In this document: positions 14,095-18,779 of the stretch, piece after piece | Position numbering within the stretch: position 1 is the stretch's first letter | How the letters are laid out: every line of letters begins with the position of its first letter | DNA from: Streptococcaceae bacterium ESL0687 | GTDB taxonomy: Bacteria > Bacillota > Bacilli > Lactobacillales > Streptococcaceae | Assembly (NCBI GenBank): GCA_029392475.1 | Contig: CP113940.1 | Coordinates: forward strand, 682,001-746,000 | DNA: 64,000 bases | Direction of reading: 5' to 3' | The notes under the pieces: generated by a model | The model's database searches: none | The model's input: the letters and a program-made list of their open reading frames with translations, nothing else | What the model was told of the DNA's origin: nothing | Translations under genes and position numbers: made by a program

Positions 14095-15423
14095 ATGAAA
14101 GATTATATTAATGTTATAGGAGCTGGTCTTGCTGGTTCTGAAGCAGCCTATCAGATTGCTAAACGTGGCATTCCGGTAAAACTATATGAAATGCGTGGAG
14201 TTAAGGCAACTCCTCAACATAAAACAGATAATTTCGCTGAGCTTGTTTGTTCAAATTCCCTTCGTGGTGATTCGATTACCAATGCTGTGGGTCTTTTGAA
14301 GGAAGAGATGCGTCAGATGGATAGTCTTATTATTAATTCAGCCGATGAAACTCGTGTTCCTGCTGGTGGGGCTCTTGCTGTTGACCGTGAGGGATTTTCA
14401 CAACTTGTAACAGATAAGATCTACAATAACCCATTAATCGAGGTTATTCGTGATGAGATTACAGAACTTCCAACAGATGCAATTACAATTGTTGCAACAG
14501 GTCCTCTAACAAGTGATGCACTTGCTGAAAAGATTCACGCCCTTAATGATGGTGATGGTTTTTATTTCTACGATGCAGCAGCTCCAATTGTCGATATTTC
14601 AACAGTTGACATGGACAAAGTTTATTTGAAGAGCCGCTACGATAAGGGTGAAGCAGCCTACTTGAACTGTCCAATGACCAAGGAAGAGTTTGTTGCCTTC
14701 CAGGAAGCCCTAATCAATGCTGAGGTTGCCAAACTTTCTGAGTTTGAAAAGGAAAAATACTTTGAAGGATGTATGCCCATTGAGGTTATGGCAGCTCGTG
14801 GCTTTAAAACCATGCTCTACGGACCAATGAAACCTGTTGGTCTTGAGTATCCAGATGATTATACAGGAAAACGTGACGGCGACTTCAAAACTCCTTATGC
14901 AGTTGTTCAACTCCGTCAGGATGATGCAGCAGCCAGTCTTTATAACATCGTAGGATTCCAAACCCACCTAAAATGGGGTGAGCAAAAACGTGTCTTCCAA
15001 ATGATTCCAGGTCTTGAAAATGCTGAATTCGTCCGTTACGGGGTAATGCACCGTAATTCATATATGGATTCACCAAATCTTCTTACTCAAAGCTTCCGTT
15101 CGAAAAAACAAGACAACCTTTACTTTGCTGGTCAAATGACTGGGGTTGAAGGTTATGTTGAGTCAGCAGCAAGTGGGCTTGTAGCAGGGATTAATGCAGC
15201 TCGTCTCTTTAAGGGAGAAGAAGAGGTCATCCTACCGCAAACTACAGCACTTGGAGCCCTTCCTTACTATATTACACATGCCAATAGCAAAAACTTCCAA
15301 CCAATGAATGTAAACTTTGGAATTATTGAAGAATGGCCTGAACGCATTCGTGATAAGAAAGAGCGCTATACAAATATTGCTAATAGGGCTCTAGAAGCTC
15401 TACAAGACTACACAGATTTATAA
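14095..15423 (+). CDS. trmFO: Folate-dependent tRNA U54 methyltransferase TrmFO
   Basis: Makes ribothymidine at position 54 of tRNAs, using methylenetetrahydrofolate and FADH2. The protein is 442 aa. The FAD-binding motif is [16 protein letters not shown] (7-22). Next are the characteristic [17 protein letters not shown] and the Cys-containing ECM-like segment at [13 protein letters not shown]. The second FAD region is [20 protein letters not shown]. Length and motifs are complete. It has a separate terminator and lies between topA and the accessory insert. Confidence 0.96.
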
Positions 15424-15426
15424 GAA

Positions 15427-15451
15427 AAAGAAGCTGCGGCTTCTTTTTTTG
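15427..15451 (+). terminator. trmFO terminator
   Basis: AAAGAAGC and GCTTCTTT pair around a 4-nt loop and are followed by a T-run. Confidence 0.85.
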
Positions 15452-15487
15452 TCAAAAATTTTTATGGTACCAGGTCTTATAAAATTT

Positions 15488-15516
15488 TTGACAATGGGCC
15501 TAACTCCCTATAAAAT
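15488..15516 (+). promoter_or_regulatory. Promoter of the ribbon-helix-helix-like gene
   Basis: A perfect TTGACA (15488-15493) and TAAAAT (15511-15516) are 17 bp apart. Confidence 0.7.
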
Positions 15517-15556
15517 AAGGCATATAGATTAACGATTAATGAAAGAGGTAGTAAAA

Positions 15557-16063
15557 ATGGCGGAATTTCAAGCGCGAGTCTCAGGTGAAGTATTGTTTTA
15601 TTTCGAAGAGCTGAAGAAACTATATGGGAAAGAGGCTGAAGAAAGAGATATTACAAAAAGCCAAATTTTGACTCGCGCATTCAGGGAAACGCGGGGCATT
15701 TCTAATTGGATTCCAATTATTGAGGATACTACCTCCATTCCTTTAAATAAAATGAAGTATGAGAAATCAACCAGCATCAAAGCTGAATTAAGTGAGCACA
15801 CAGATAAGGGAATAAGGGATCTGAAATACATATTGCCCTCATTTACTGATACCAGGAGTGTAACAATTGGGGTAACCTTAAAGTTCCTCCTTAAGGGAGC
15901 TTTAATCCTGAATAAAACGGGACAGGTTGCTTCTATGGATGAATTAGAAACGATAGATTATGAATTTGAAAGTTTGGAAAACAATCTGAAAAATCTAGTC
16001 GCTCCTATTAATCACGAAATTTTAAGCAATATGCTCTCTGATTTTAAAAATAAGCTGAAATAG
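15557..16063 (+). CDS. Unknown protein with two ribbon-helix-helix-like segments (168 aa)
   Basis: I do not recognise a named family. The start is set at ATG 15557, which AGAGGTAG precedes; an in-frame ATG at 15539 has no RBS. Residues 1-45 read as a strand (EFQARVSGE) followed by two helices, with ITKSQILTRAFRET as the second, like an RHH DNA-binding unit. Residues 78-120 repeat the pattern: STSIKAELSEHTDKGIRDL, then RSVTIGVTLKFLLKGALIL. A helical tail follows. A DNA-binding autoregulator or plasmid-type protein would fit; this is inference. It is the first gene of an insert between trmFO and xerS and has its own promoter. Confidence 0.65.
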   Translation: MAEFQARVSGEVLFYFEELKKLYGKEAEERDITKSQILTRAFRETRGISNWIPIIEDTTSIPLNKMKYEKSTSIKAELSEHTDKGIRDLKYILPSFTDTRSVTIGVTLKFLLKGALILNKTGQVASMDELETIDYEFESLENNLKNLVAPINHEILSNMLSDFKNKLK

Positions 16064-16096
16064 ATGATGGTATTGGAGGCAAATCTTGTCTTCTTT

Positions 16097-16122
16097 TTTT
16101 CGTATTTATATAAATACGAAAA
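16097..16122 (+). terminator. Palindromic hairpin after the RHH-like gene (terminator or operator)
   Basis: A perfect 26-bp palindrome (TTTTCGTATTTA and its complement around TA). It has T-rich sequence on both sides and lies 33 nt after the stop. It is also 26 nt upstream of the next promoter's -35, so an operator role is possible. Confidence 0.6.
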
Positions 16123-16147
16123 TTTTAAGGTTTATGTACCTTATTAT

Positions 16148-16176
16148 TTGAAAAAAATTTCGATTTCCTTTATAAT
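16148..16176 (+). promoter_or_regulatory. Promoter of the HAD/orphan gene pair
   Basis: TTGAAA (16148-16153) and a perfect TATAAT (16171-16176) are 17 bp apart. A strong AAGGAG precedes the ATG of the next gene. Confidence 0.75.
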
Positions 16177-16231
16177 TCATTTTGTAAAATAAATTCGCTA
16201 CAATGTAGAATAAAAAATTTAAGGAGATTTT

Positions 16232-16705
16232 ATGAAAACTACTTATCTTTTGCTGGACGTTGACGACACACTAGCCCCTCTAAATTATAGAGGTTCTGAT
16301 GCCGTAGAGATAGAGACCTGGGGGCGAGGGGATCTAGCAATTCCACGATACATCGTGGATTGGTTAAAGGCGTTTTCTAAGAAGGAGAATTGCGAAATAG
16401 TCTGGTGTACAGATCGTGAAAGCGAAACAGCTCAAATTGAGAAACAGCTTGGATTTAAGGCTTCTGATAAATTGATTTTTGATAATGCTTCGAAAGGAAC
16501 TTGGAAAAAAACATCAGAAATTCTAAGATTTGCAAGCAGCCATCCAACAAGTACTGTAATTTGCGCAGATAATGATGCATGGCGAATTCCTTCTGATTTG
16601 ACTTTACCTTCAAATCTTCATCTAATTATACCGAATGACTCAAAAGGATGTTTATCAACAGAAGATTTAAACACCATTGATAAGATGGTTAACCATAAAC
16701 AATAA
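16232..16705 (+). CDS. HAD-like phosphatase, HAD_SAK-type (157 aa)
   Basis: A compact HAD-superfamily protein without a large cap. Motif I LLLDVDDTLAPL gives nucleophile D9 and acid D11. Motif II is WCTDR (about 58-62). A basic KKTSEI segment (92-97) can supply the motif III lysine, and motif IV is CADND (about 111-115). The pattern (LDVDDTLAP, then WCTDR or WATDW-like) matches the HAD_SAK group, seen as single proteins and fused to RNA-repair modules. Its substrate is unknown. It is 16 nt upstream of the orphan gene at 16722, so the pair is probably one operon. Confidence 0.75.
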   Translation: MKTTYLLLDVDDTLAPLNYRGSDAVEIETWGRGDLAIPRYIVDWLKAFSKKENCEIVWCTDRESETAQIEKQLGFKASDKLIFDNASKGTWKKTSEILRFASSHPTSTVICADNDAWRIPSDLTLPSNLHLIIPNDSKGCLSTEDLNTIDKMVNHKQ

Positions 16706-16721
16706 GAGAAAGGGAAATACC

Positions 16722-17348
16722 ATGAAAATTGAGAACTACTTAATTCCCAAGCGCCCTCCTAAAGAGGAATCATCGGTTCACTACAATCAGCATTCAAGAC
16801 TGAACAAAGCAAGGGAGGAGGCCAAACGTGCGCCTTTTCCTGTAGAAGAAGTAGTTCGGATAGGTAATGAATTTCTCGGAAAAATGGGGGTAAAGACATT
16901 TAAAAAAAATATCTATGAAATACCTTCTCATGATTCCGAGAAATATCTTGCTGAATTATATGATCAACTTAAGGATACTTGTGATTTAGCTGATAGACGG
17001 GATATCTTGTGGATAAAATTCGCAAGGGATGGCTATGTTGGCGTTGTAGCAAAGTCGAATGACATAAACTTTAAAATCCCTAAGGATCGGACCGTCTGGG
17101 ATGAAACTAATAATGGAAAGCCTAAAACTTCATCTAATAGTTGGAAGTGGAATACCTCTGGCATCATAATTGAATCCCTGGGTAAACAATGGAATGAGTC
17201 CTTTGTTGTAATTTTCCCTATACCTCTGGCAAAAACTCTTTCAGCAAAAATGAGGAAATTAGAAATGGGAAAATTGGAGCACGGTCTAGGAGGAGCCCTA
17301 ATATTGGCTGACTGCCCCATTCTTGATTACTATTCGCATACGTATTGA
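16722..17348 (+). CDS. Orphan protein of unknown function, operon partner of the HAD phosphatase (208 aa)
   Basis: I do not recognise this protein. The start is ATG 16722, with AGAAAGGGAAAT just upstream; the longer frame from 16677 has no RBS. The N-terminus (1-45) is polar and basic, KRPPKEESSVHYNQHSRLNK, and probably disordered. Residues 45-100 are helical with acidic patches. A strand-rich region includes DILWIKFARDGYVGVVAKS and WKWNTSGIIIESLGKQW, and the C-terminal part has FVVIFPIPLAKTL and a GLGGALILAD segment. There are no TM helices or signal peptide. Coupling to a HAD_SAK-like protein suggests a nucleic-acid or nucleotide role, which is unproven. Confidence 0.7.
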   Translation: MKIENYLIPKRPPKEESSVHYNQHSRLNKAREEAKRAPFPVEEVVRIGNEFLGKMGVKTFKKNIYEIPSHDSEKYLAELYDQLKDTCDLADRRDILWIKFARDGYVGVVAKSNDINFKIPKDRTVWDETNNGKPKTSSNSWKWNTSGIIIESLGKQWNESFVVIFPIPLAKTLSAKMRKLEMGKLEHGLGGALILADCPILDYYSHTY

Positions 17349-17390
17349 TAAAAAATACCCCGGGCAATCTGCTTAGGGGTATTTTTTATC
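17347..17390. terminator. Bidirectional terminator between the insert and xerS
   Basis: GATAAAAAATACCCC (17347-17361) pairs perfectly over 15 bp with its complement at 17376-17390, around a 14-nt loop. T-runs serve both the + insert operon and the - xerS gene. Confidence 0.9.
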
Positions 17391-18461
17391 TTACAATTTA
17401 TCCAGAGCATTTTTCTGCTCCTCATCAATTATATGGGTGTAGAGGTCAGTCACCTGGGTGCTGGAGTGGCCTAGTTGGTGGCTAACAAGTACCTGGGAGT
17501 TAGTTTCAGCATAAAGTCTAGTTGCTAGCGTATGTCGCAGTTTGTGGGGCGTAATTCGAACCTTAAAGGCTTGAGAGTATTTGGCAACCATTTTTTCAAT
17601 AGAAGAAGCATCCATTCTGTTAGCAACCCCCTTATAAGTCGTTAGGAAAAAAGCCGTATTATTTTTTTCAGGCTTATACCTCTGATCCCTAATCTTTATA
17701 TATTCTTCCAAATAAGGTCCTGCAAAGGGGGCAATAGCTACAGCATCACGTTTTCCTCCTTTTCTAGTTATTTCAGCAGTCATAATATTTAAATTGATAT
17801 CTCTAGTATCCATGTTAACAGCTTCAGACAGCCTAATTCCAGAAGCCAGCATGAGAGCAATAATGGCCAAATCTCGCTCAAGATTCTTTTTAAAGGATGA
17901 CAAGGCCCTAGGACTCAGGCTCTCCTCATAGCTGTTAGCTATAAAATCCAAAAAATCCTGACTTTCATCACCCAAAAAGAGTTTATTTTTAATGTTTGCA
18001 GCCCTTGCAGCTAAAGTCTCCCTTTTTTTCTTGGTAGCAACCTTTTTCATGACATTGCGGTGGAAGTAGGGCTCACCGTGTTCATCCTCAACCTCCTCAG
18101 TCAGGTAATTAAAAAGAGAGGACAAAGATGTCAAGGTACGATTAATGGTCGTCTGAGAGACCCCGTACTGGGTTGAATGGGTATTAAGTTTAGGACGCTC
18201 CCTTAAATAGTTAATATAGGCCTCTAAGTCCTTTTTAGCCAGATGTTCCAGCTCATAAAGGGGAATATCTGAGATTTTAGGAGCCTTGGAGACACCAGAT
18301 TCAATCATCCAGGTAAAAAATCGATTATATTCCTTGAGATATTCATATAAGGTGGTCAAACTATAAGGAACTGTTAATTTTGATTGGTAGTATTCGAGGA
18401 CATAGGTTGGCATGATCTTTTTCAAATCTTCAATATTTTCAAGCAGACGTTCACGTTTCAT
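17391..18461 (-). CDS. xerS: Tyrosine recombinase XerS
   Basis: The single site-specific recombinase that resolves chromosome dimers at dif in streptococci and lactococci, working with FtsK. The protein is 356 aa, the family length. A SAM-like core-binding domain spans about residues 15-125. The catalytic set is complete: R210 in [10 protein letters not shown]234, H306 and R309 in [10 protein letters not shown]332 in LGHSS, and the nucleophile Y341 in DLYTHI. Y341 is the position known for XerS. The dif site lies 72 nt upstream of its start, the standard linkage. The three-gene insert separates it from trmFO. Confidence 0.96.
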
Positions 18462-18740: not shown

Positions 18741-18779
18741 AAAAGATACCAAGGAATATTTAATTTCTTGGTATCTTTT
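18741..18779 (-). terminator. Terminator of the metal ATPase gene
   Basis: AAAAGATACCAAG and CTTGGTATCTTTT pair perfectly over 13 bp, with a T-run on the - strand. It lies about 85 nt beyond the ATPase stop. Confidence 0.8.

Follow-up and report, generated by a model that had tools for sequence, protein, structure and literature searches.

The described proteins closest to the system reported here are HAD_SAK_2 (PF18143), the HAD domain of Swiss Army Knife RNA repair proteins; the GIY-YIG superfamily, including the UvrC N-terminal domain (structures 1yd6 and 1ycz), the Slx1/UPF0213 type (1ywl) and 2lwf; and the ADP-ribosylglycohydrolases which, according to PMC9503650, are coupled to calcineurin-like and HAD phosphatases in host systems. 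In this work, we analyzed a stretch of 64,000 nucleotides (nt) from the single-contig, 1.47-Mb genome of Streptococcaceae bacterium ESL0687 (CP113940.1, positions 682,001 to 746,000; hereafter the window), specifically the three-gene insert at 15424..17390 between trmFO (14095-15423, plus strand) and xerS (17391-18461, minus strand). Its genes, all on the plus strand, encode P1 (15557..16063; 168 amino acids, aa), probably a double ribbon-helix-helix (RHH)-like regulator; P2 (16232..16705; 157 aa), a HAD-superfamily phosphatase related to HAD_SAK_2; and P3 (16722..17348; 208 aa), an orphan with a helical N-terminal part and a C-terminal domain of GIY-YIG-like fold. Taken together, our results give about an even chance to the reading that this is a horizontally acquired accessory cassette, led by P1 and probably acting on nucleic-acid ends in conflict with phages or plasmids.

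The insert is accessory within its genus, since only 38, 75 and 74 bp separate trmFO from xerS in G001-G003, the three congeners searched, where the gap holds a hairpin (read by eye). P3 was not found anywhere in these three genomes; P2 relatives occur at other places in each, and one of them carries a P1 relative, also elsewhere. A core-gene status of the insert was rejected on this ground, and a housekeeping identity for P3 was likewise discarded, as it matched no family and is rare. An earlier note, made from the letters of this DNA, had described three genes between trmFO and xerS, and the coordinates, lengths and 16-nt P2-P3 spacing that it gave proved exact; the remaining gaps measure 133 nt (trmFO-P1), 168 nt (P1-P2) and 42 nt (P3-xerS), and a purine-rich stretch precedes each of the three start codons. 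The same note took the order topA-trmFO-xer as established. Among 20 loci with a full trmFO, some of which end early (our own before xerS), trmFO is followed by a full xerS relative in the three congeners and in one other genus, but the Xer proteins at L021 and L023-L025 are just 24-30% identical, so the order is upheld in part. In one further genome (G992; L206, L211), a P1 remnant and a D12 methyltransferase gene stand directly 3' of topA (by eye), near the neighbourhood of the present insert.

In the model that we favor, P1 would act as a repressor at two promoters, that of its own gene and that of P2-P3. Once this repression is lifted, P3 would recognise or cut a nucleic acid or nucleotide belonging to an invading element, and the ends or products so formed would be dephosphorylated by P2. 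Phage or plasmid conflict would be the setting. The restriction, phage and conjugation-type genes nearby and the cargo found beside P1 relatives support this model, in which the substrate and the benefit are inferred.

P1, which leads the insert, is probably a ribbon-helix-helix-like regulator with predicted DNA binding. As to the two RHH-like segments that had been noticed in it, the two halves of P1 align with each other (hhalign E value 7.9e-4, probability 25%), but no RHH family in Pfam, NCBIfam, PHROGs or PADLOC matched the protein. This internal repeat agrees with the double RHH-like reading and is no proof of it. A sequence search of the PDB with the P1 family gave matches at chance level, and a single-sequence scan of viral contigs with P1 gave none. 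By profile search, P1 relatives were found in 25 of 328 genomes of the bacterial family, our own included, at 28 places around which cargo was scored within 1.5 kb. Exo_endo_phos-type cargo lies beside them in nine of the 25 genomes (in six of them the protein passes the Pfam cut-off or shares at least 67% identity with an Exo_endo_phos-type protein, and in three it scores below the cut-off), D12 or N6/N4 DNA methyltransferases in six, and a HAD protein in two, namely our own and the congener G003. Conjugation-type genes adjoin P1 relatives in six genomes (by eye). A further Exo_endo_phos-like place in G961 was recognised by eye, without a Pfam match, and G004 holds a P1 remnant, also by eye. 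In addition, a distant P1 relative in G939 (E value 3.4e-5) was the sole newly found match above the inclusion threshold among 3719 open reading frames. The methyltransferase and Exo_endo_phos loci of this bacterial family have the leader gene family in common with our cassette but differ in cargo, HAD and P3 being carried here instead.

A leader of this kind would also suit a toxin-antitoxin-like addiction module, with P1 as an antitoxin-type repressor that binds DNA and with P2 or P3 harmful unless repressed. That P1 is RHH-like, leads cargo and has relatives adjoining conjugation-type genes (by eye) is consistent with such a module. We consider it unlikely, however: P1 is encoded apart from P2-P3 with promoter-like and terminator-like sites of its own, the P3 relatives of the named-genome loci have no P1 relative nearby and, among the HAD loci read, only that of G003 has an adjacent P1 relative.

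The conflict-cassette reading draws, besides, on the way in which the three genes meet elsewhere. Outside the window, every one of the three pairings (P1-P2, P2-P3 and P1-P3) is seen a single further time, and none of them is fixed; the cassette is one variant of a type whose parts recur separately. P1 and P2 are found together in G003 (L055:6347-9198), where P1, HAD, metallophosphoesterase and DUF6994 genes follow each other in series, flanked by a maltose O-acetyltransferase-like and a ybaB-like gene (both by eye). A HAD_SAK_2-type HAD (HAD_SAK_2 score 59.9) and P3 are neighbors in a Lachnospiraceae metagenome-assembled genome (MAG; L124), with two metallophosphoesterases upstream. P1-like and P3-like genes are adjacent on the same strand in G939 (L179:5797-8411), in an island near rpsI (by eye) which also carries a second, different P3-like gene and a 131-aa orphan, a counterpart of which (57% identity) follows P1 in G408 (L190). 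The settings in which relatives of P1, P2 and P3 occur include phage contigs, the vicinity of recombinase or conjugation-type genes, and sites next to genes for restriction or methylation.

The lack of a fixed partner at P3 loci would fit a passive accretion, in which three unrelated mobile genes had gathered at a permissive terminator without any joint function. The recurrence of all three pairings elsewhere speaks against this, as does the spacing of P2 and P3, and we judge it quite unlikely. As the earlier note had proposed, the latter two genes lie 16 nt apart behind one common promoter-like site.

Within the proposed cassette, P2 is a HAD phosphatase whose motifs are intact and for which catalysis is predicted. 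It was matched by HAD_SAK_2 over nearly the whole profile with an E value of 1.6e-5, which agrees with the HAD_SAK-type phosphatase first reported, but its 25.7 bits fall under the gathering cut-off of 27.5 bits; in contrast to the HAD domain of the repair proteins, it is a stand-alone protein. Residues D9, D11, T13, K93 and D113, which we take to be the catalytic motif residues of HAD enzymes, are invariant in an alignment of seven sequences. The best of the other weak library matches was thioredoxin-like, at 0.0033 for P2, and the PDB sequence search with the P2 family remained at chance level. P2 relatives occur in 12 of 98 genomes, our own included, with an HsdR-type gene as neighbor in G019 and an integrase-like gene in G036 (by eye). 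No match was obtained for P2 by tblastn in plasmids and phages, nor in a single-sequence scan of viral contigs. Separately, the HAD relatives of two congeners (G001, L058:6377-7594; G002, L059) adjoin a 69-aa gene and the gene of a small AAA_18-type kinase (the kinase scanned in G001 and recognised by eye in G002), an arrangement suggestive of a kinase-phosphatase pair.

P3 remains an orphan, as originally described, with no family match in Pfam, NCBIfam, PHROGs or PADLOC. A single-sequence search retrieved two relatives besides P3 itself in 98 genomes, and profiles found the family in 16 of 395 genomes of the order (the weakest being a distant group, hereafter group B), in 9 of 335 of the bacterial family and in 1 of 398 of the phylum, the last being solely our own, which is included in each count. 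Group B is related to P3 with an hhalign E value of 6.9e-12. In named genomes, 47 loci carry P3 relatives; judged by title, most hosts are Firmicutes (Enterococcus pseudoavium, Alkalibacterium thalassium, Lapidilactobacillus, Clostridium and gut MAGs), with one Neisseriaceae and one Rhodospirillales MAG in addition. Five viral contigs hold P3 relatives. In three phage contigs (L164:7944-8546, L165:7914-8501 and L166:1200-1865), they are flanked by large terminase and portal genes, on the opposite strand to these in L166. The terminase and portal names were given by likeness and are backed by the E. pseudoavium locus L113, the same phage as L165 and the only one whose such genes were scanned, with one TerL_nuclease and one Phage_portal match. 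No match was found for P3 by tblastn in plasmids and phages, for a prophage P3 relative in phages and plasmids, for the group C relative of G939 in phages, or for P3 (single-sequence) and group B in scans of viral contigs; the PDB sequence search with the P3 family stayed at chance level. In G140 (L083:1-2343), a group B relative and the gene of an AlwI-type restriction endonuclease (PF09491, E value 1.2e-50) run towards each other. As a separate observation, the P3 relatives of L119, L121, L123 and L131 have in common an upstream protein of 395-569 aa (89% identical between L131 and L121, the other likenesses being by eye), without a Pfam match in the two tested and with recombinase-type genes nearby.

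In Streptococcus infantis, the P3 domain stands behind an ADP-ribosylglycohydrolase domain (PF03747, E value 4.4e-31) within one 489-aa protein (L115:2117-3586, the same as L073:1498-2967). Because of this fusion, and of the hydrolase-phosphatase systems of PMC9503650, we keep open a reading as ADP-ribose chemistry, in which P3 would sense or bind ADP-ribosylated molecules and P2 would dephosphorylate the released ADP-ribose products. The metallophosphoesterases beside the HAD gene in G003 and beside the HAD-P3 pair in L124 point the same way, resembling the phosphatase partners of those systems. Nevertheless, the fusion is single among the P3 proteins seen, none of the three insert proteins has an ADP-ribosylglycohydrolase domain, and the cassette is led by P1 and lacks the Nudix or WYL regulator of the systems in that source. 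Besides, there is no Cys at the conserved P3 positions, whereas PMC9503650 stresses a conserved Cys in the ARPP domain. We hold this reading to be improbable.

The C-terminal domain of P3 (residues 70-208; 16929..17345, plus strand) has a GIY-YIG-like fold with a rebuilt site of putative activity. The GIY-YIG guess came from a sequence motif of group B, a strand, turn and strand ending in VGxS followed by LExxLGxYLI...PILN, and preceded any structure result. The P3 model reached a predicted local distance difference test score (pLDDT) of 93. Searched whole with Foldseek, it had no match at an E value of 0.001 or less in the PDB and BFVD, the BFVD list containing phage GIY-YIG endonucleases at an E value of about 2. 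The first hit of the structural aligner was the UvrC GIY-YIG domain 1yd6 (Z 4.1, root-mean-square deviation 3.8; 88 residues of the 94-residue chain aligned with residues 68-208 of the model), and the next, a designed protein, had a Z of 3.5. With a compact domain from a P3 homologue (109 aa, pLDDT 87), UvrC GIY-YIG domains held Foldseek ranks 1, 2, 3, 5, 6, 8 and 9, and nine of the 12 hits of the structural aligner were GIY-YIG structures with Z from 2.6 to 5.2, the other three having Z of 2.0-2.1. The nine were 2lwf (5.2), 1yd6 (5.1), 1yd4 and 1yd3 (4.8 each), 1ycz and 1yd2 (4.7 each), 1yd5 (4.5), 1zg2 (2.7) and 1ywl (2.6). We take 2lwf to be the AtGRXS16 domain, the N-domain of a plant glutaredoxin, and 1zg2 presumably belongs with 1ywl. 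GIY-YIG activity of the AtGRXS16 domain is named in the title of a cited paper in a reference list (PMC3816324), and 1ywl is a GIY-YIG structure according to PMC1564403.

Conservation was read from P3 and 40 of 46 relatives, the cut, short or near-duplicate sequences of L110, L117, L121, L123, L124 and L126 being left out and L133 unused. Residues W97, D114, W157, D202, S205 and H206 are invariant in all 41 sequences, K99 and E186 are present in 40 each, and Val occupies positions 108 and 109 in 37 each. With the residue roles of the UvrC active site assumed and the positions mapped by eye, E186 corresponds to the catalytic Glu and D202 to the Asn, W97 replaces the first signature Tyr and V108 or V109 the second. 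The Asn is retained in seven of seven group B sequences, in contrast to the Asp of the P3 group. Between residues 94 and 181, no column has Arg in at least 40% of the 41 sequences; a frequent Arg (32/41) is found in the last helix, immediately before E186. P3 has the strand and helix order of the GIY-YIG superfamily and, as mapped by eye, the Glu of its C-terminal helix, but differs in both Tyr positions, in the Asn and in having no Arg at its place, and also in its extra helical N-terminal part and in the lack of a Pfam match. The same change from Asn to Asp appears in COG1833, as stated in PMC1564403. In model terms, the P3 family forms a new group among proteins of the GIY-YIG fold; the structure prediction suggested for P3 led to this fold, with no homology to a housekeeping enzyme in the family libraries. 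If P3 is enzymatic, its active site would have been rebuilt on a GIY-YIG fold, and the fixed residues make this directly testable. That P3 is instead a selfish nuclease gene, a free-standing homing-type endonuclease spreading between sites with P1 and P2 as bystanders, is very doubtful: its fold, the relatives between terminase and portal in three phage contigs (one reversed) and those near serine recombinases would suit it, but the signature catalytic residues are gone, no Pfam DNA-binding domain occurs in the P3 relatives scanned, and P3 is co-directional with the HAD gene at 16 nt.

The accessory nucleic-acid or nucleotide-modifying module with its own regulator, as the earlier note had it, gains from the absence in congeners, the mobile and restriction-modification contexts, the varying cargo of P1 and the fold of P3, and it loses where HAD_SAK_2 stays below its cut-off and PADLOC is silent. 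Several observations weigh against our conflict-cassette reading. First, no PADLOC 2.0.0 model matches P1, P2 or P3, and nine of ten further cargo or relative proteins, including the Exo_endo_phos proteins tried, have no match in that library, the tenth being a type II methyltransferase. In addition, the GIY-YIG assignment is moderate and holds at fold level only: a Z of about 5 is modest, none of the Foldseek matches obtained with the compact domain reaches significance (best E value 0.27), hhalign of the P3 family against GIY-YIG alignments (UvrC or YhbQ-type) was not significant, and group B alone reached an E value of 0.028, its probability being 2%. P3 lacks the catalytic Tyr and Arg and may possibly be no nuclease. 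None of five P1-family members matches a Pfam RHH family, and one of the five matches the NusB family weakly (4.4e-4). Moreover, several P1 loci carry near-identical cargo, so that independent events are fewer than the counts. The co-occurrence of HAD and P3 elsewhere, raised in the earlier note, was found in the Lachnospiraceae MAG, but this is just one of 46 usable P3 loci in named genomes, P3 usually lying without P2, and the HAD of that locus had also seeded the profile; a fixed P2-P3 pair was therefore rejected. A second HAD match beside P3, in L122, is at chance level (E value 0.0099). Finally, no recurrent partner emerged among 97 scanned proteins, mostly P3 neighbors (91 of 123 listed neighbors, two neighbors in L167 and four P3-family proteins), the commonest families around P3, helix-turn-helix and serine recombinase, each accounting for at most three of the 97.

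More tentatively, it is tempting to speculate that the P1 relatives represent an undescribed mobile class of conflict cassettes of this bacterial family, in which a constant double-RHH-like regulator would be combined with swapped effectors (Exo_endo_phos, restriction-modification, HAD and calcineurin phosphatases, P3), and that P3 derives from a GIY-YIG domain, its new catalytic set (Trp97, Lys99, Asp114, Glu186, Asp202, His206) serving a non-canonical chemistry on nucleic-acid or ADP-ribose ends. If P1 relatives do control interchangeable effectors, they could serve as bait for more small conflict genes in streptococci and their relatives.

The regulatory signals claimed for the insert, promoters and terminators of its own, are supported by where they lie and not by their number. 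Directly 5' of P1 and of P2 stand the two promoter-like sites that score best in the stretch: a sigma-70-like P1 promoter, TTGACA-17-TAAAAT (15488..15516, plus strand), and a sigma-70-like promoter of the P2-P3 operon, TTGAAA-17-TATAAT (16148..16176, plus strand), each with 11 of 12 matches. The totals, however, do not exceed those of shuffled sequences (15 promoter-like sites versus 16.8, and 4 terminator-like sites versus 4.3), and the argument therefore rests on placement. A terminator-like hairpin with a T run lies 3' of P1 (16075..16093, plus strand), and a 15-bp perfect inverted repeat with a 14-nt loop (17347..17390) probably serves as a terminator in both directions, for P3 and for the convergent xerS.

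Two further repeats are candidate operators. A 14-bp perfect inverted repeat with an 18-nt spacer (15449..15494) overlaps the -35 box of the P1 promoter, an arm of 14 being reached in none of 2000 shuffles of the 133-nt trmFO-P1 gap, and a 26-bp perfect palindrome (16097..16122) lies 5' of the P2 promoter. A further point against the proposed repression is that a repeat with an arm of at least 11 was found upstream of one of 24 P1 relatives, that of this genome, as compared with 10 of 135 control stretches, and the long inverted repeat was discarded as a family-wide P1 operator. Because long repeats are no family feature of P1 promoters, the role of the inverted repeats as P1 operators is only suggestive. 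In favor of a regulator, the hexamer GTACTA/TAGTAC of G003, a motif picked post hoc, occurs at five sites in 14 kb, four of which precede P1 and HAD.

Beyond the insert, a dif site is expected near xerS. A 17-bp hairpin (18741-18779 of the window) separates xerS from a P-type ATPase gene, the latter recognised by eye.

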